Shown: piece by piece, positions 1-5,384 of the stretch | Position numbering within the stretch: the stretch's first letter is position 1 | Layout of the letters: every line of letters starts with the position of its first letter | Source of the DNA: Ignavibacteria bacterium | Lineage (GTDB): Bacteria > Bacteroidota > Ignavibacteria > Ignavibacteriales > Melioribacteraceae | Reading direction: 5' to 3' | Assembly: GCA_003233295.1 (NCBI GenBank) | Contig: QILJ01000315.1 | Coordinates: 1-5,384 of the forward strand | Length of the DNA: 5,384 bases | Translations under genes and position numbers: made by a program | The notes under the pieces: model-generated | Told to the model about the DNA's origin: nothing | The model's input: only the letters and a program-made list of their open reading frames with translations | Databases searched by the model: none

Positions 1-55
1 TTCTCAACAGTTATAGCAAACACCTTGTTGATACCTCTAAAAACATCCTTTTTGT

Positions 56-481
56 ATGCTGCTAGCATTTTTATCTTATCCTTTATTTAATAGAGAGGAT
101 TGGATATCCTTGAATGAGTCATTCTCAGCAACATATCAAATGCATATTCTTCCATACTTCGTTGAACTTGAAAAGAACATTAAAGCTGATTGGATTGAAT
201 CTATAAAGGTATTCATTGAAACTTTTAAAAAAATACAAAGATCTTCTTACACATGGTTAGTTACAATTATTAGAGCACTGATCTCTTTATTATTTGTCTT
301 TTTAAGCTTAGAATATTTTGGGGTATGGTCCTTTTTGGTAATTCTTAGTTTCATTGTGGTCATTGGTGCAGGGGTATTGTTCCTGGTAGCAGGTCTGCAA
401 GATTCAATTAAGGGGTTAGAAGGCCTCCAAACTGGAATTATCAAGCGGTCAAAAAATCGAAAAGAACCAACTTTACCATAG
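56..481 (+). CDS. small two-helix membrane protein, function unknown
   Basis: I do not recognise this 141-residue protein. What can be seen is a mixed N-terminal half (residues about 10-65, with aromatic, acidic and lysine residues and possible amphipathic helices), then two closely spaced hydrophobic segments at about 67-86 and 89-114 that should form a membrane hairpin, and a short basic tail (residues 129-137 rich in K and R) that would sit in the cytoplasm by the positive-inside rule. The ATG at 56 has no Shine-Dalgarno sequence before it. Another frame is open from base 1 to a TAA at 88-90 and also encodes a hydrophobic peptide, so the true gene may begin left of the window and be joined to this frame by a frameshift, or this ORF may overlap the end of an upstream gene. 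A terminator at 573-594 separates it from the following operon, so there is no reason to assign it to that system. The stretch 482-572 shows nothing recognisable. Confidence 0.55.
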   Translation: MLLAFLSYPLFNREDWISLNESFSATYQMHILPYFVELEKNIKADWIESIKVFIETFKKIQRSSYTWLVTIIRALISLLFVFLSLEYFGVWSFLVILSFIVVIGAGVLFLVAGLQDSIKGLEGLQTGIIKRSKNRKEPTLP

Positions 482-572
482 ATTTGCTATACTCTGAGTT
501 TTGAATTTTCGTTGATTTGTTTTATCCAGCTATTTCATTGAGCACGTAATCTAACATTGAATCGTAAATTCT

Positions 573-594
573 GTGGGGATAAGCCCCACTTTTT
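573..594 (+). terminator. rho-independent terminator after the membrane-protein gene
   Basis: A perfect 6-bp GC-rich stem, GTGGGG (573-578) with CCCCAC (584-589), encloses a 5-base loop and is followed at once by five T residues (590-594). It lies about 90 bases after the membrane-protein stop. It implies that the ATPase operon starting at 689 has its own promoter within 595-688. No convincing promoter is visible there; a TATAAG at 666-671 is the only -10-like box I noticed, and it has no good -35 partner. Confidence 0.8.
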
Positions 595-688
595 AGTATT
601 TTAAGCTCAGCACGGTTAAGGATCTATCTGGATTCTTCATAATAAATGCTCATTAAAAGACACATTATAAGAAAGGTACAACGCATAA

Positions 689-1942
689 ATGTATATTTCG
701 AGGATTGAAATTCATCATATCAGGTGTTTTGAACACTTGATTATCGACTTGGAAAGAGCCAAGGATCGAATAATGTGGACCACTATACTAGGTGATAACG
801 CAGTTGGCAAATCAACTATTCTTAAATGCATTGCAATGGGGCTCTCTGATGTTTCTAGTGCATCTGCACTAATGAAGGAAGTAAGCGGCGACCTAATTCG
901 ACGTGGAGAAGAAACCGCAACGATAAAAATTACATTGAAAAAAGAAACGACTGATTCCGGTGTATCAATAGAAACCGAGATTACTCAACTTTCCAAAGAC
1001 AGTCCGGAGGAAATTCTGCAGCATGTGCATTCTGATAATGATATTCCGTGGCATGAAATATTTGTTTGCGGATATGGAACACAATTAGGAGCAGGTGGCG
1101 GTAACACTTTTGAAAGATACAAGCAGATTGAGGCAGTGTACACCTTATTTAATGACACTTCCGAGCTACCTAATCCCGAAACCATAATGCGACGACAAGG
1201 ATTGGATGTTAGAAATTGGCTGTCAGAAAAGCTACAGGAGATCCTTCTAATAAAAGGATACAAAGAAATCGAATATAATAAAAAAGGAATGTACGTATTC
1301 GGTCCTTGGGGAAAAAGTAGGGTCGAAGATTTAAGTGATGGGTATAAAACCACTATTCAATTGGTTGTGGACTTTTTTGGTTGGCAAATTGTTTCTGATA
1401 AGATAAAAAATGTAGACGATGAAATATCAGGAATTTTGCTGATCGATGAATTGGAAACTCATCTTCATCCAAGGTGGCAACGAAGTATTGTAAATGCTCT
1501 AAGAGCACAGTTGCCAGGTGTGCAAGTAATATCTACAACCCATTCACCGCTAATAGTTTTAGGTACTTCAGACCTCGAGGATGCCCTCATGGTCGAATTG
1601 GATTTGATTGGTAAAAATAAGCTTCATTACCAATGTTTAGATCCTGCTTTTTACAGAGGTTTTTCTGTAGATCAGATTTTAACCTCTTCAGCTTTCGATC
1701 TACCAATCTCTGGGAGCCTTATTACTGGCGACAAACTATTAAGATATAAGGAATTGTTTTTACTGGATACTAGAGATGAAGATGATGAAATTGAGTTTTC
1801 TAATCTTCAAAAAGAGCTGGAGCAAAATATACCAGAAGTAAGGGCGGATGCAGAAAGTACGGCATTACAAAAAGAGTTAATCAAAAAATCTCAAGAATTA
1901 TTAGACAGAATAAATTCAGCTAAAGATGATAAAACTCCCTAG
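689..1942 (+). CDS. SMC/RecF-type AAA ATPase, PtuA-like (Septu family)
   Basis: This 417-residue protein is a complete ABC-type (SMC/RecF-like, AAA_21/AAA_15 class) ATPase. It opens with the family's typical first strand (MYISRIEIHHIRCFE). The Walker A motif GDNAVGKST is at residues 35-43, a glycine-rich GYGTQLGAGGG segment at about 128-138, a signature-like LSDGYK at 215-220, the Walker B ILLIDE at 249-254 with catalytic Glu254, and the H-loop TTHSP at 283-287. After the ATPase core there is an SVDQIL segment near 326 and an acidic, probably coiled-coil tail (about 362-412). There is no Toprim domain, which argues against an OLD or Gabija GajA nuclease. The stop overlaps the next gene, an HNH nuclease, by 17 bases; ATPase followed by HNH is the arrangement of Septu PtuA-PtuB, where the ATPase is thought to regulate the nuclease. 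The start at 689 fits the family N-terminus; an AAGAAAGG 12 bases upstream is a weak ribosome site. The ATPase class is certain, the Septu assignment is by inference from motifs and neighbour. Confidence 0.88.
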   Translation: MYISRIEIHHIRCFEHLIIDLERAKDRIMWTTILGDNAVGKSTILKCIAMGLSDVSSASALMKEVSGDLIRRGEETATIKITLKKETTDSGVSIETEITQLSKDSPEEILQHVHSDNDIPWHEIFVCGYGTQLGAGGGNTFERYKQIEAVYTLFNDTSELPNPETIMRRQGLDVRNWLSEKLQEILLIKGYKEIEYNKKGMYVFGPWGKSRVEDLSDGYKTTIQLVVDFFGWQIVSDKIKNVDDEISGILLIDELETHLHPRWQRSIVNALRAQLPGVQVISTTHSPLIVLGTSDLEDALMVELDLIGKNKLHYQCLDPAFYRGFSVDQILTSSAFDLPISGSLITGDKLLRYKELFLLDTRDEDDEIEFSNLQKELEQNIPEVRADAESTALQKELIKKSQELLDRINSAKDDKTP

Positions 1943-2720
1943 TAGACCGAATCCTCCTGGTAAATTAACTAGTCAATCAGTTGCTCAATCCTTAAGTAGT
2001 ATTGAGCAAAAGGTTTTGAAGGGGGATAGTTTAAATTCCAGAACGGATTTTCCTAACTATTGGCACCCTGAAGCCAGAGAATTACTGTGGATCAATCAAA
2101 AAAAAAGATGTTGTTATTGTGAACGATTAAGAGAGGCGAAAAGAGAATCTGATCTCGAACATTTTAGGCCTAAGAGTATGGTAACTGAAGATACAAACCA
2201 TAAAGGTTATTGGTGGTTGGCATATAATTGGTCAAATTACTTTTTTTCCTGTAAGCCATGTAATTCCGATTACAAAGCAAATCATTTTCCTGTGCTAGAT
2301 AACTCAAGAGCATTTGGTCCAGATGACCGCTTGACCGATGAGTTTCCTGTACTAATAGATCCGTGCATTGAAGACCCAGAGGAATATATCGATTACCAGT
2401 GGGAATCTAATGGGCCATATGTAAAAGCTGTAGGATCTATAAGAGATACTGAAAATAGAGGAAGAGAAACGATAAACATTTTAGGACTAAATCGTACGGA
2501 ACTAATGGAAGGCAGGGCTGCTAACCTTTCAGTTTTATCTGGAATAGCTAAATTAATGAATGCGTATGAGATGTTTCCAATGCTGAGAACTCAGAAGGAA
2601 TTTGAAAGGGTCACTCAGTTGATAAGGGAACAAACAGATTTCAATTCTGATATTAATTATATTGGGTTTCGGCGAGCTTTCTTTCGAAGATGGGATTTAG
2701 GTGGATATATTGTGGCATGA
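1926..2720 (+). CDS. HNH endonuclease, PtuB / retron-associated HNH (TIGR02646-like)
   Basis: This 264-residue protein carries a zinc-ribbon HNH nuclease fold: CxxC at Cys62/Cys65 (CCYCE), the core DLEHFRPK at 77-84 with the likely catalytic His80, a YWWLAYNWSN segment at 95-104, and a second CxxC followed by Asn at 109-113 (CKPCN). The EHFRPK core, the tryptophan-rich segment and the later NILGLNR block (184-190) are what I know from the HNH proteins paired with AAA ATPases in Septu systems and in Ec78/Eco7-type retrons (TIGR02646-like). The expected role is cutting nucleic acid, DNA or RNA, when the ATPase senses infection; the target cannot be read from sequence. The ATG at 1926 lies inside the end of the ATPase gene (17-base overlap), so the two are probably translationally coupled. 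The TGA stop at 2718-2720 overlaps the start of the SpeD-like gene. No key residue appears to be missing. Confidence 0.88.
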   Translation: MIKLPSRPNPPGKLTSQSVAQSLSSIEQKVLKGDSLNSRTDFPNYWHPEARELLWINQKKRCCYCERLREAKRESDLEHFRPKSMVTEDTNHKGYWWLAYNWSNYFFSCKPCNSDYKANHFPVLDNSRAFGPDDRLTDEFPVLIDPCIEDPEEYIDYQWESNGPYVKAVGSIRDTENRGRETINILGLNRTELMEGRAANLSVLSGIAKLMNAYEMFPMLRTQKEFERVTQLIREQTDFNSDINYIGFRRAFFRRWDLGGYIVA

Positions 2721-3088
2721 AATATTATGGAAAAGAATTGATACTTGATCTTCATGGTTGTGATGTGTCGCGTTTTAATAGAAAGAAGATAAAGAAGTAC
2801 TTTGTTCAGTTATGTGCTTTGATCGATATGGAACGTTGCAAACTAAGCTGGTGGGATGATCATGGTTTGCCTCCGGAAGATTGCCAAACAGAACCCCATT
2901 TAAAGGGTACTACCGCGGTGCAGTTTATTATGACCAGCAATATTGTTATTCATACCTTAGATCTCTTGGGAGCCGTATATGTAAATATATTTTCCTGTAA
3001 AGAATTCGACCCCAAAGTGGCTGAGGAATTTACGGCTGAATGGTTTAAAGGAACTGTGGTTAATTCACATTTTATCGATAGAATATAA
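2717..3088 (+). CDS. speD: S-adenosylmethionine decarboxylase (SpeD)-like protein, short prokaryotic class
   Basis: From the ATG at 2717 this is a 123-residue protein, the usual size of the short (class 1B) prokaryotic AdoMet decarboxylases, which self-cleave to make a pyruvoyl cofactor and decarboxylate SAM for spermidine synthesis. The N-terminus GKELILDLHGCD (5-16) matches the family's GxHLLLDLYGCD-type start. The canonical ESHISIHT motif appears as TSNIVIHT (73-80): the pyruvoyl-forming Ser74, the processing His79 and the later Cys94 (IFSC, 91-94) are kept, but the residue before the cleaved serine is Thr instead of Glu and the next is Asn instead of His. I chose 2717 over the earlier in-frame ATG at 2690 because it gives the family N-terminus and an ATGA stop/start overlap with the nuclease. 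Its own TAA overlaps the next ATG. Some SpeD homologues are known to act on arginine or ornithine, so the substrate is open. No spermidine synthase gene lies in the window. Confidence 0.8.
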   Translation: MKYYGKELILDLHGCDVSRFNRKKIKKYFVQLCALIDMERCKLSWWDDHGLPPEDCQTEPHLKGTTAVQFIMTSNIVIHTLDLLGAVYVNIFSCKEFDPKVAEEFTAEWFKGTVVNSHFIDRI

Positions 3089-4419
3089 TGAAAGAATTAG
3101 AGCTTAAAGTCCCCATAGTTAAAGATCACCAAAATTTGCTTTCTCATTTTTGGGACTTAATTGGTAATAGAGAAAATGCAAGTGGCATACCGATTAGATT
3201 TGTGGTTACTCAAACTGATAAAGAGAATTATCACTGCGAAATAGGGATGTTGCCCATGGTGGAGTCTCAAGACAAATCAGAGCAGGATTCGATTTTTTAT
3301 TTTAAAAAACGAGATTTCGAAAATACAGATAAGTTCAATGCAGTTTTTCTGACACCAACCGGTATAGGGTCCGATATTGGAGGACATGCAGGTGATGCCA
3401 CGCCTGCAGCTCGTATGATTGCCTCTATTTGCGATACCTTAATCACTCATCCCAATGTGGTAAATGCCTCCGATGTAAATGAGATGAGTGAGAATATGCT
3501 GTATGTCGAGGGTAGCGTGATTAGTCGTTTGTTAATGGGCTCAGTAGGTTTGCAACCGGTTAAAGCAAATCGAATCTTGACAGTTATTGATGATCATCCT
3601 CTGGAGATTTATTCCAATGCAGCTATTAATACTGTTAATGCTGCCAGAGCCACGTACGGGTTAAATTGCGACCAGATTGTGAAACTCAACCCACCGATAC
3701 AAATGACGGCAGAATATACATCTGCAGGCAGGGCCGGGGGTACTATATCGGGATTGGAGCATCTTTTTGAGGTATTGGATGAATTTGAAGGCAAATATGA
3801 CGCACTGGCCATCTCTTCTGTGATAAAAGTTCCCATGAGCTATCATATGGACTATTTTCAATCGGAAGGAGGGATGATCAATCCTTGGGGAGGCATTGAA
3901 GCCATGCTAACCCATGCTATCTCTATGAAGTATAACATTCCTTCCGCTCATGCCCCTATGTTTGAATCTGAAGATATTGCCAACATGGATCCAGGTGTGG
4001 TAGATCCAAGAATGGCAGCGGAAGCCATCTCGGTTAGCTTTCTTCAATGTTTACTTAAGGGTTTGCAGCGTAGTCCGAAGATATTAACCGATTCTAAGAT
4101 GTTTAATAATAGTGGGGTCGTTTCCGCAAAAGATGTCTCTTGCCTAATTATTCCAGTGGGTTGTTTGGGATTGCCAACGTTAGCCGCTCTTGAACAGGGA
4201 ATCCCTGTTATAGCAGTAAAGGAAAGTGCGAATATGATGCAAAATAGCTTATCCGAGTTGCCGTGGAAATCCAATCAATATTTTGAGGTTGAAAATTACC
4301 TGGAAGCGACTGGCATAGTGGCTGCCTTGAGGTCCGGTATTAGCGTACCTTCGGTTAGGCGACCATTAAGTTATTCGCAGGTACATAAAATAAAAATTGG
4401 CGTAGCTAAAGAAATTTAG
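3088..4419 (+). CDS. DUF3326 family protein, function unknown
   Basis: This 443-residue protein resembles the DUF3326 family, which I know mainly from cyanobacterial genomes and which has no established function. The blocks I recognise are a glycine-rich PTGIGSDIGGHAGDATPAAR (90-109), DDHPLEIYSNAAINTVNAA (168-186), NPPIQMTAEYTSAGRAGG (201-218), NPWGGIEAMLTHAIS (265-279), DPGVVDPRMAAEA (301-313) and a C-terminal GCLGLPTLAALEQGIPVIAV (358-377). The glycine-rich loops and conserved acidic and histidine residues look like those of an enzyme rather than a structural protein, but no catalytic class can be named. No signal peptide or membrane segment is visible, so it should be cytoplasmic. Its ATG shares a base with the SpeD-like stop (TAATG), implying coupled translation and a joint role with that gene. 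Hand-counted lines within it (27/60 and 31/60 GC) are richer in GC than lines in the ATPase and HNH genes. No strong plus-strand terminator follows; the hairpin at 4562-4590 might serve weakly. Confidence 0.85.
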   Translation: MKELELKVPIVKDHQNLLSHFWDLIGNRENASGIPIRFVVTQTDKENYHCEIGMLPMVESQDKSEQDSIFYFKKRDFENTDKFNAVFLTPTGIGSDIGGHAGDATPAARMIASICDTLITHPNVVNASDVNEMSENMLYVEGSVISRLLMGSVGLQPVKANRILTVIDDHPLEIYSNAAINTVNAARATYGLNCDQIVKLNPPIQMTAEYTSAGRAGGTISGLEHLFEVLDEFEGKYDALAISSVIKVPMSYHMDYFQSEGGMINPWGGIEAMLTHAISMKYNIPSAHAPMFESEDIANMDPGVVDPRMAAEAISVSFLQCLLKGLQRSPKILTDSKMFNNSGVVSAKDVSCLIIPVGCLGLPTLAALEQGIPVIAVKESANMMQNSLSELPWKSNQYFEVENYLEATGIVAALRSGISVPSVRRPLSYSQVHKIKIGVAKEI

Positions 4420-4556
4420 ATTTACCAAATGAGCTACTTGCTAGAATTGAAACCAAAGCAGGCACTGGATAGATACAAGGTTCATTTCCTGAACAACTGA
4501 GTGAACCAAAGAATAACTTTAAAGTTTACCCAAGCTGCCACCTATTTGACACCAAT

Positions 4557-4590
4557 AAAAAAGCAAACTACTGATAATCAATAGTTTGCT
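4557..4590 (-). terminator. rho-independent terminator of the tRNA-Leu gene
   Basis: Read on the minus strand, AGCAAACTA (4590-4582) pairs perfectly with TAGTTTGCT (4570-4562) across an 11-base loop, and a T-run continues from the stem to 4557. It sits about ten bases beyond the 3' end of the tRNA. On the plus strand the same hairpin is followed by CTCCTTTC rather than a T-run, so it would be at best a weak terminator for the convergent operon ending at 4419. The rest of 4420-4600 holds no recognisable gene. Confidence 0.85.
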
Positions 4591-4600
4591 CTCCTTTCAG

Positions 4601-4684
4601 TACCCAGAGCCGGGGTCGAACCGGCACGTCCGTGAAGACATTGGTGTTTGAGACCAACGCGTCTACCAATTCCGCCACCTGGGC
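4601..4684 (-). tRNA. trnL-CAA: tRNA-Leu, anticodon CAA
   Basis: The reverse complement folds as an 84-base class II tRNA. The acceptor GCCCAGG pairs with TCTGGGT (with G-U at each end) and the discriminator base is A, as expected for leucine. The D arm contains GGTAGA, the anticodon stem TTGGT/ACCAA holds the loop CTCAAAC with anticodon CAA (4650-4648), a long variable arm (TGTCTTCACGGACGT) follows, and the T arm is GCCGG-TTCGACC-CCGGC. It would read UUG codons. The 3' CCA is not encoded (CTG follows), so it must be added after transcription. It has its own promoter upstream and terminator downstream. Confidence 0.96.
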
Positions 4685-4688
4685 AAAG

Positions 4689-4736
4689 TATAGAGTGTGG
4701 TATAAAGTGTAGCATAGAGTGTGATATAAAGTTTGA
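4689..4736. repeat. imperfect 24-base tandem repeat in the tRNA leader/promoter
   Basis: Two 24-base units lie back to back. Both contain ATAGAGTGTG (from 4690 and 4714), then a G or A, then TATAAAGT, and they diverge towards the end. The first unit lies in the presumed leader of the pre-tRNA and the second contains its -10 box. Confidence 0.75.
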
Positions 4737-4753
4737 TTTGGACATGTTGTCAA
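4725..4753 (-). promoter_or_regulatory. likely promoter of tRNA-Leu
   Basis: On the minus strand TTGACA (4753-4748) is followed after exactly 17 bases by TTTATA (4730-4725). This is a full sigma-70-type -35 box and a near-consensus -10 box at the ideal spacing, about 40 bases before the mature tRNA 5' end, which suits a stable-RNA gene. The -10 lies in the second copy of a 24-base imperfect tandem repeat, whose first copy holds a similar TTATA box nearer the tRNA. Confidence 0.6.
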
Positions 4754-4810
4754 ATTAAATTCATTTAGCTCAATTGCGCATTTTATCGCTTACACCCACA
4801 CTCTATACTC

Positions 4811-4866
4811 AAACTCACACTCAATCTGCCCCCACACCCACACCCGCAAACTTAAACTCAATCTGC
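4811..4866. repeat. 19-base direct repeat in a C/A-rich spacer
   Basis: AAACTCACACTCAATCTGC (4811-4829) recurs as AAACTTAAACTCAATCTGC (4848-4866) with two mismatches and a 37-base period. Between them is a run of CCCACACCCACACCCG. The plus strand here is almost purely C, A and T. Confidence 0.75.
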
Positions 4867-4990
4867 AAACATAAGTAGAAATTCACAATCCGGAAAGTAG
4901 TTTTTCAATAATTGAGATAGGGCCAAGCCCCAAAACGCAATTTCCAACTAAGCACCAAACTCCAAACTCTGGAGCACTAAAATAGCTAGC

Positions 4991-5047
4991 TCCCTGCGCT
5001 ATGCTCCATGCCTCCCTGCTCCATGCTCTCTGCGCTATGCTCCATGC
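4991..5047. repeat. direct repeats of a TGCGCTATGCTCCATGC-type unit
   Basis: Three copies stand close together: 4991-5011 and 5027-5047 are 21-base copies differing at one base (TCCCTGCG versus TCTCTGCG), and 5013-5026 is a shortened copy (TCCCTGCTCCATGC) lacking the inner CGCTATG. The array begins directly after the stop of the SAM hydrolase gene (minus strand), so it lies in that gene's 3' untranslated region. Confidence 0.85.
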
Positions 5048-5049
5048 CC

Positions 5050-5384
5050 CTATTCCTCAAAGGATATCTTTACTTGCGAATCGAATTGCAGGCCCATCAA
5101 TTCGGATGCATTGCCTTTATTGATGCCCACCTCCAATAGTCCCAAACTGTTGAACATCACATAACAATCTCCGCTACCGGTCTCGTTGATGGAAGTATTT
5201 AAACGCCTAAACCGCTCTCTGCCAATTAAGATGGTATAACCCCGATCTTCACGGAGCATGGAAAACGAATATTGGTAATGAGGTTTCCATAGTGATCAAC
5301 CCGCACCACATGTCCGATGATCTGGGTTTTGCTGGCACGCATATGTCGCCCCACCATCTTTTTGTAGTCAACTTTTTGTTTGCC
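5050..5384 (-). pseudogene. SAM hydroxide adenosyltransferase (SAM hydrolase, DUF62), 3' part, frameshifted
   Basis: The gene enters from the right edge on the minus strand. The first frame reads from 5384 through GHVVRVDHYGNLITNI (ending at 5268), the conserved DxYGNLxTNI block at the start of the C-terminal domain of SAM hydroxide adenosyltransferases, which cleave SAM to adenosine and methionine. That frame then meets a TAA at 5228-5226. The family sequence continues in another frame as MLREDRGYTILIGRERF and ends with FNSLGLLEVGINKGNASEL and a hydrophobic last strand, stopping at 5052-5050. Adding one base near 5266-5268 would restore a continuous NI-P-F-SMLRED reading. This is either a real one-base deletion or a sequencing error. 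The catalytic N-terminal domain lies outside the window. Family identity is fairly sure; whether the gene is dead is not. Confidence 0.75.

Follow-up and report, generated by a model that had tools for sequence, protein, structure and literature searches.

Septu-type ptuAB genes recur in one operon with a decarboxylase gene and a DUF3326 gene

The window analyzed here, a stretch of 5,384 nucleotides from an Ignavibacteria bacterium (assembly GCA_003233295.1, contig QILJ01000315.1, positions 1 to 5,384 of the forward strand), carries at 689–4419 four overlapping open reading frames (ORFs) on the + strand. They encode a PtuA-family ABC/SMC-type ATPase of 417 residues (689–1942; PADLOC PtuA, E 9.7e-60), a PtuB-family HNH endonuclease of 264 residues (1926–2720; PADLOC PtuB, E 3.5e-51), a SpeD-like pyruvoyl decarboxylase of 123 residues (2717–3088; Pfam AdoMet_dc, E 3e-14), and a DUF3326 protein of 443 residues with a predicted alpha/beta fold (3088–4419; PF11805, E 5.9e-92). 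That these four genes form a real unit is near certain, and the unit stands because PtuAB recurs with the decarboxylase–DUF3326 pair and the PtuA of these operons is a distinguishable family. The reading we favor, tentatively and at somewhat less than an even chance, is that the four genes work together as a conflict system of the Septu type that carries its own metabolic control module, in which PtuAB would be the effector and an amine made by the decarboxylase and DUF3326 would control it; the defense role, the amine control, its product, and its target are what we infer from sequence. A sequence-only reading of the window had already described the four ORFs and their three + strand overlaps, namely 17 bases between ptuA and ptuB (1926–1942), ATGA between ptuB and the speD-like gene (2717–2720), and TAATG between the speD-like and DUF3326 genes (3086–3090). 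The coordinates bear this out, and PADLOC and Pfam matches agree with the identities it gave (Septu-like ATPase and HNH nuclease, SpeD, and DUF3326).

Recurrence was assessed by an alignment scan for DUF3326 with one genome per species, from which the best 80 of 221 confirmed loci were used; with five IMG/VR loci and loci from phylum-wide family searches added, 92 DUF3326 loci remained after deduplication. The genomes scanned are by title mostly metagenome-assembled genomes (MAGs), in which incompleteness and misbinning are possible. A decarboxylase gene lies on the same strand within 400 nt upstream at 82 of the 92 loci (81/88 of those with more than 500 bases upstream). The ten loci without it comprise three cut by a contig end, five with a divergent DUF3326, and L071 and L072, which have a pyridoxal phosphate (PLP) enzyme downstream of DUF3326 instead. 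Both PtuA and PtuB precede the decarboxylase at 17/92 loci, eleven with the SpeD-like enzyme (L001, L002, L005, L007, L016, L022, L033, L046, L052, L067, and L069) and six with a PLP decarboxylase (L019, L038, L040, L045, L049, and L145); counting L004, which has PtuB only and is cut at the contig end, the number is 18. These units occur in eight phyla, as taken from record titles (L145 from the Bacteroidota search): Bacteroidota, Fidelibacterota, Planctomycetota, Thermodesulfobacteriota, Pseudomonadota, Nitrospirota, Rhodothermota, and Myxococcota. PtuA-like matches at E ≤ 1e-20 were found in 17/148 Bacteroidota and 7/149 Planctomycetota genomes (seeds included), and because such matches are this infrequent, a chance position of PtuAB before the decarboxylase–DUF3326 pair, estimated from this background frequency, is very unlikely. 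The idea that a two-gene Septu cassette simply landed before an unrelated housekeeping pair is barely credible: Septu is mobile, with seven PtuAB loci on plasmids, and SpeD–DUF3326 does occur without Septu, but the arrangement is repeated in eight phyla, its PtuA family is recognizable, and it was found again from PtuA alone, so that the recurrence counts contradict this explanation.

The PtuA proteins of these operons, 30–38% identical to that of the window, are separable from other PtuAs. In a leave-one-out hidden Markov model comparison, 15 full-length operon PtuAs scored 355–490 bits, against a best score of 219 among 38 other PtuAs drawn from 148 Bacteroidota and 149 Planctomycetota genomes (E ≤ 1e-20; L131 left out) and from the seven plasmid PtuAB loci, two of which adjoin a retron reverse transcriptase. 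The L145 PtuA, which was outside the profile, scored 476 bits, and the truncated operon PtuA of L007 183 bits. In a tree from which the truncated L007 and L033 genes were excluded, 16 operon PtuAs fall on one side of a branch (support 99/96; 100% of 200 bootstraps) against the 38 others. Searches with PtuA alone, in overlapping draws of 148, 149, 198, 345, 149, and 138 genomes, gave matches above 290 bits in ten genomes (G001, G003, G009, G010, G013, G014, G231, G294, G569, and G664), and a decarboxylase follows PtuA on the same contig in nine of the ten, seven of which had already been found via DUF3326. New PtuA–decarboxylase loci were thereby obtained in G231 (SpeD) and G664 (PLP enzyme), whose contigs end before the expected DUF3326 position and whose genomes gave no DUF3326 match elsewhere; in G569, PtuA lies at a contig end with an internal stop, and a DUF3326 piece begins another contig. 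Plain PtuAs, in contrast, had neither decarboxylase nor DUF3326 at any of 39 distinct loci, most with only about 1.5 kb of flanking sequence, and a PtuB match at 31 of them; the PtuA loci L170, L171, and L172 likewise had neither. Relatives of the operon PtuA number 356 at E ≤ 1e-30, and among the 120 listed, 20 have N-terminal extensions of more than 80 residues. Nine of the extended proteins were scanned: three carry a TIR domain, in one case together with EAD1; a phosphorylase domain and a receiver domain were each seen once (fused PtuAs P0327, P0328, P0347, P0353, and P0359); and the remaining four have no recognized extra domain. TIR, EAD1, phosphorylase, and receiver domains are typical of conflict systems. 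PtuA and SpeD or DUF3326 matches were also noted, by eye, on contigs of equal length above 10 kb (33839, 37451, 19419, 18895, 25945, 15594, and 204621), which is suggestive of a link without being proof.

With these results, the proposal of a four-gene system in the sequence-only reading can be weighed. It had been set against a SpeD–DUF3326 pair conserved without the ATPase and HNH genes and against the latter never recurring with that pair; the pair is indeed conserved without PtuAB, but PtuAB does recur, at 18/92 loci in eight phyla and with a distinguishable PtuA. The same reading had offered the alternative that a defense pair had inserted upstream of a unit already resident there, which falls as an accident and survives insofar as PtuAB comes and goes at a slot before the decarboxylase–DUF3326 pair. 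Taken as a whole, the earlier interpretation is partly supported.

Comparisons of related loci lead to the conclusion that PtuAB moves as a unit into a fixed slot before a stable decarboxylase–DUF3326 pair, because swap pairs, label changes on the DUF3326 tree, and distance correlations all point that way. Between L045 and L049 (Nitrospirota), DUF3326 is 95% identical, PtuA 30%, and PtuB 32%; DNA windows flanking the cassette on both sides are mostly 90–97% identical (one 82%), and the exchanged stretch extends into the decarboxylase, the first part of which is 40% and the rest 96% identical. Between L020 and L038 (Fidelibacterota), with DUF3326 at 93% and DNA identities of 82% over about 3 kb upstream and 83% over decarboxylase–DUF3326, the slot is occupied by a membrane protein (c13) in L020 and by PtuAB in L038. 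L016 and L152, which belong to a single genome, have SpeD–DUF3326 (79%) and the 3′-terminal part of an mfnB-type gene (81%) in common, with PtuAB versus c13 between them; the L152 DUF3326 is short. On the DUF3326 tree, to which the window was added and from which 11 divergent or truncated rows were left out, the PtuAB label changes eight times, at least five of these being forced by starred branches (supported by the Shimodaira–Hasegawa-like approximate likelihood ratio test only). PtuA and PtuB distances have a Mantel r of 0.58 (13–14 loci).

Among the 64 loci whose upstream sequence exceeds 3.5 kb, the slot region holds PtuAB in 14, glutathionylspermidine synthase (GSPS)-type genes in 21, c13 in three, a nucleotide cyclase with TPR repeats in one, and none of the modeled partner types in 25; one of the 21 GSPS-type loci also carries PRMT-like and cyclase-TPR genes. 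The c13 protein, with several hydrophobic segments, occupies the PtuAB slot in L012, L015, L020, L031, L048, and L152; the L015 protein had no Pfam match, and those of L015 and L020 had no PADLOC match at 0.001. Cyclase-TPR type proteins lie upstream of decarboxylase–DUF3326 in L008, L062, L074, L035, and L146 (both domains detected in L008, TPR alone in L062), with a PRMT-like methyltransferase beside them in L062, L074, and L035. A gene for an MfnB-type 4-(hydroxymethyl)-2-furancarboxaldehyde phosphate (4-HFC-P) synthase, assigned by PF04476 in two proteins scanned, adjoins PtuA in L005, L016, L067, and L167 and lies one or more ORFs from it in L045 and L049, in either orientation; C-terminal remnants precede PtuA in L038 and lie upstream of c13 in L152. 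Its presence may reflect a partnership, or it may simply mark where the exchanged segment ends. In L024 and seven other Chloroflexota loci, a SecA-like gene (cluster c9; Pfam match examined in L024) is found near PLP decarboxylase–DUF3326, without PtuAB, and none of 11 Chloroflexota loci has PtuAB. In L083 and L084 (IMG/VR records filed as viral, 241 and 173 kb), SpeD–DUF3326 adjoins a 2150-residue protein without a Pfam match. Lipase-type genes adjoin several PtuAB loci: Tle1-like (L046:9541-10701), patatin-like (plasmid L139), and DUF2235 (plasmid L140), the last of which we take to be a Tle1-like family.

Two unrelated enzymes alternate upstream of DUF3326, the SpeD-like pyruvoyl enzyme (49 loci) and a PLP enzyme of the ornithine/diaminopimelate/arginine decarboxylase family (33 loci). 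PtuAB accompanies both, and the decarboxylase label changes nine times on the DUF3326 tree of 82 rows. Three PLP decarboxylases scored 318, 269, and 326 bits against the nspC model TIGR01047, all below its cut-off of 409.05; for one protein examined, the nearest solved structures are carboxynorspermidine decarboxylases (PDB 9eaf, E 9e-77), and the L038 enzyme had no PADLOC match at 0.001. The window SpeD-like protein likewise falls below the curated cut-off of TIGR03330 (31 versus 75.65 bits). In 40/40 aligned operon SpeDs (of 49 SpeD-type loci), Ser74, His79, and Cys94 are kept, and Leu-Asp/Glu (Asp in 37, Glu in three) replaces the Trp-Pro of the WPE motif of S-adenosylmethionine (AdoMet, SAM) decarboxylase (AdoMetDC), equation of the Asp/Glu position with the marked AdoMetDC proline resting on our own alignment. 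Excerpts of PMC10407285 give this proline as conserved in bona fide AdoMetDC, describe an “anomalous SpeD” pattern that the operon SpeDs fit, and report arginine and ornithine decarboxylases demonstrated within the SpeD family. The operon copy is the only SpeD in 9/11 SpeD-type genomes searched, a set that did not include G231, with G003 and G005 also having a canonical SpeD. Of 12 SpeD-type genomes, to which that of the window does not belong, the same two are the only ones with a strong spermidine synthase match (PF01564, E below 1e-30); weaker matches occur in 6/12 and none in 4/12, and MAGs among the 12 may be incomplete. On this evidence, the SpeD-like protein is unlikely to be an AdoMet decarboxylase, and the SAM-pool sensing suggested by the sequence-only reading is weakened because the proline is absent from all 40 proteins and 10/12 SpeD-type genomes have no strong spermidine synthase match. 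The substrates known for the two decarboxylase families, AdoMet and carboxynorspermidine, have a 3-amino-3-carboxypropyl group in common, which serves as a lead to the substrate and not as a test.

The AlphaFold2 model of DUF3326 has an alpha/beta architecture (predicted local distance difference test 89.8, predicted template modeling score 0.91), and structure comparison found no solved relative over its whole length. The presence of invariant residues, including GGHxGD, NPWGGxE, and H288 (106 sequences), suggests that DUF3326 is an enzyme. The family is sparse, with matches in 3/296, 6/246, 6/149, and 1/148 genomes (seed genomes included); it is present in a cyanobacterium used as a control genome, and part of PMC4284462 describes a fed3-DUF650-DUF3326 cluster. 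One 611-residue DUF3326 protein (P0122) has a long internal self-repeat, perhaps an assembly artifact. If the decarboxylase and DUF3326 instead modified a nucleic acid, for instance the tRNA cut by PtuAB, with an amine or a group of the aminopropyl type, the cell's own molecules would be shielded and unmodified targets cleaved, as in restriction-modification. The common 3-amino-3-carboxypropyl group and the PRMT-like methyltransferase of three related loci fit such self-protection, as does Septu EcB88, whose target according to the consulted portion of PMC13096335 is tRNA-Tyr, cleaved in the variable loop, and which depends on its Walker and HNH residues. We nevertheless regard this explanation as improbable, as searches of limited power recognized no RNA- or DNA-binding signature in DUF3326, and decarboxylase–DUF3326 persists at loci that have a membrane protein in place of PtuAB, which target modification does not predict.

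Under the favored reading of amine-controlled PtuAB, the decarboxylase would act on an amino acid, or on a compound bearing a 3-amino-3-carboxypropyl group, to yield an amine, which DUF3326 would convert or attach. The product would be a ligand keeping PtuAB off, or turning it on, in the manner of the reverse transcriptase and multicopy single-stranded DNA (msDNA) of type I-A retrons; infection would perturb the product or the state of the cell, PtuAB would cleave tRNA or DNA, and the phage would be stopped. Some systems pair a constant control or signal module with variable effectors, and it is because the constant enzyme pair with exchangeable upstream parts resembles these that amine control of the effector is favored. 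The recurrence of the unit, its dedicated PtuA family, the two unrelated decarboxylases in one slot, the cassette exchange, the intact catalytic residues, and the conflict-domain fusions also count in favor of this reading, as do two precedents from other systems, PtuAB as an exchangeable toxin in retron-Eco7 (PMC11555353) and tRNA-Tyr cleavage by Septu EcB88 (PMC13096335). A broader form, possible but doubtful, is that decarboxylase–DUF3326 makes a dedicated, previously undescribed amine that serves as a messenger (or as a small-molecule antitoxin) and that the pair lies at the heart of a whole family of immune systems, constant itself but combined with an exchangeable effector, which might be PtuAB, c13, cyclase-TPR with or without the PRMT-like enzyme, or perhaps a TIR- or phosphorylase-fused PtuA. 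The same constancy of the pair and variability of its upstream partners could be read with the roles reversed, the upstream part (PtuAB, membrane protein, or cyclase-TPR) sensing and the decarboxylase and DUF3326 acting as a constant effector that alters an amino-acid, SAM, or polyamine pool. This we hold to be quite improbable, since PtuAB catalytic residues are intact in operon loci and since PtuAB is a toxin in retron-Eco7, where it is neutralized by the reverse transcriptase and msrmsd (PMC11555353, as far as its excerpt goes).

A metabolic explanation is also unlikely. On this view, the pair would make a cofactor or a polyamine conjugate of the envelope, and PtuAB would work alongside it as a regulator or quality-control nuclease that plays no part against phages. 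The explanation draws on the neighbor types GSP_synth, DUF1190, and DUF350, which in the accessible sections of PMC11237479 belong to AdoMet decarboxylase envelope-stress operons, on the MfnB-type gene near PtuA in six loci (remnants in L038 and L152), and on the 11 Chloroflexota loci without PtuAB. A stable metabolic regulator, however, would not be expected to give way, as PtuAB does, to a version with 30% identity between flanks of mostly 90–97% identity, and the sparseness of DUF3326 and the conflict-domain fusions of PtuA also speak against it.

Several observations weigh against the favored reading of one amine-controlled conflict system. Most decarboxylase–DUF3326 pairs are without PtuAB (25/64 with no modeled partner and 21/64 with glutathionylspermidine-synthase-like genes), so the pair also exists independently of PtuAB. 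Searching IMG/VR with PtuA gave 57 loci, and neither a decarboxylase nor DUF3326 was matched at any of them; DUF3326 had no match in plasmid and phage collections. On the IMG/VR contig L173, the PtuA of a plain PtuAB pair scores 284 bits; it branches at the base of the family, in a placement without resolution, and blurs the border of the operon PtuA family. Fused PtuAs and further metagenome PtuAs, examined as protein sequences, also fall inside the family. PtuA and DUF3326 distances correlate weakly (Mantel r 0.27, p 0.03, 14 loci), and those of PtuB and DUF3326 are uncorrelated (r 0.03, 13 loci). Finally, the L045 decarboxylase (5809-6962) lies in two frames, and because its two parts are in different frames this copy of the unit may be broken or misassembled.

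If the favored reading of amine control is right, small-molecule metabolism would be a third way of controlling the PtuAB nuclease; to our knowledge, PtuAB systems are either two-gene or retron-controlled. The unit would also give DUF3326, seldom named in the literature searched, a functional setting, and L045/L049 and L020/L038 are natural swap pairs for telling effector from control.

Within the window, PtuA has a Walker A motif GDNAVGKST (791–817, + strand) and a Walker B motif with D253/E254 (1445–1450, + strand), and G35, N37, K41, D253, and E254 are invariant across 14 aligned operon PtuAs. PtuB scores 55.0 bits against TIGR02646 (cut-off 52.15), and its C62xxC65, H79, N104, and C109xxC112 are invariant across 17 aligned PtuBs. 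The ORF caller placed the speD-like start at 2690; ATG 2717 is supported because most of 22 aligned homologs begin there. The predicted pyruvoyl Ser74, accompanied by His79 and Cys94, is encoded at 2936–2938 (+ strand). DUF3326 scores 308.7 bits, above the PF11805 gathering score of 25 bits. No PADLOC model matched the SpeD-like protein or DUF3326 at E ≤ 0.1. In locus L001, too, the genes overlap at the second and third junctions (−4 and −1). Downstream of the operon are a tRNA-Leu(caa) gene (4600–4684, − strand) and, at 4685–5050, short repeated motifs such as “tatagagtgt” and “ctccatg” seen by eye. Beyond these, 5050–5259 (− strand) encodes the C-terminal end of a protein matching SAM hydroxide adenosyltransferase (PF20257, E 5.6e-9), and what comes before it in the protein (5260–5384) seems to lie in another frame; despite the SAM theme, this gene on the other strand is probably unrelated to the operon.

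Among the literature matches listed, the combination of PtuAB, a decarboxylase, and DUF3326 was not found, and the unit can be compared with four known arrangements. It resembles the GSPS-DUF1190-DUF350-AdoMetDC operons of the PSP network, as far as the available text of PMC11237479 describes them, in that decarboxylase–DUF3326 adjoins such genes in Pseudomonadota loci; none of these genes is in the window, however, where PtuAB takes the upstream position. Like the neofunctionalized SpeDA/SpeDC enzymes covered in the excerpts of PMC10407285, the operon SpeDs keep Ser/His/Cys, lack the AdoMetDC proline, and mostly occur without a strong spermidine synthase, but they are clustered with DUF3326 and PtuAB rather than with polyamine pathway genes. 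In type I-A retrons (Ec78/Eco7), PtuAB is similarly an exchangeable effector under a control module, the control here being putative, whereas the module would consist of metabolic enzymes and not of reverse transcriptase and msDNA; no reverse transcriptase was found among six window ORFs scanned, with only 688 bases upstream and the flanks of other loci not searched for it. With Septu, the unit shares an adjacent, overlapping PtuA-type ATPase and PtuB-type HNH nuclease whose active-site residues are kept. It differs in having the decarboxylase and DUF3326 genes overlapped with ptuAB and a PtuA of a separable family, and it is not a self-contained two-gene system. Because ptuAB is repeatedly accompanied by the decarboxylase and DUF3326 genes within one operon, the unit is classed not as plain Septu but as a variant among Septu-type systems.

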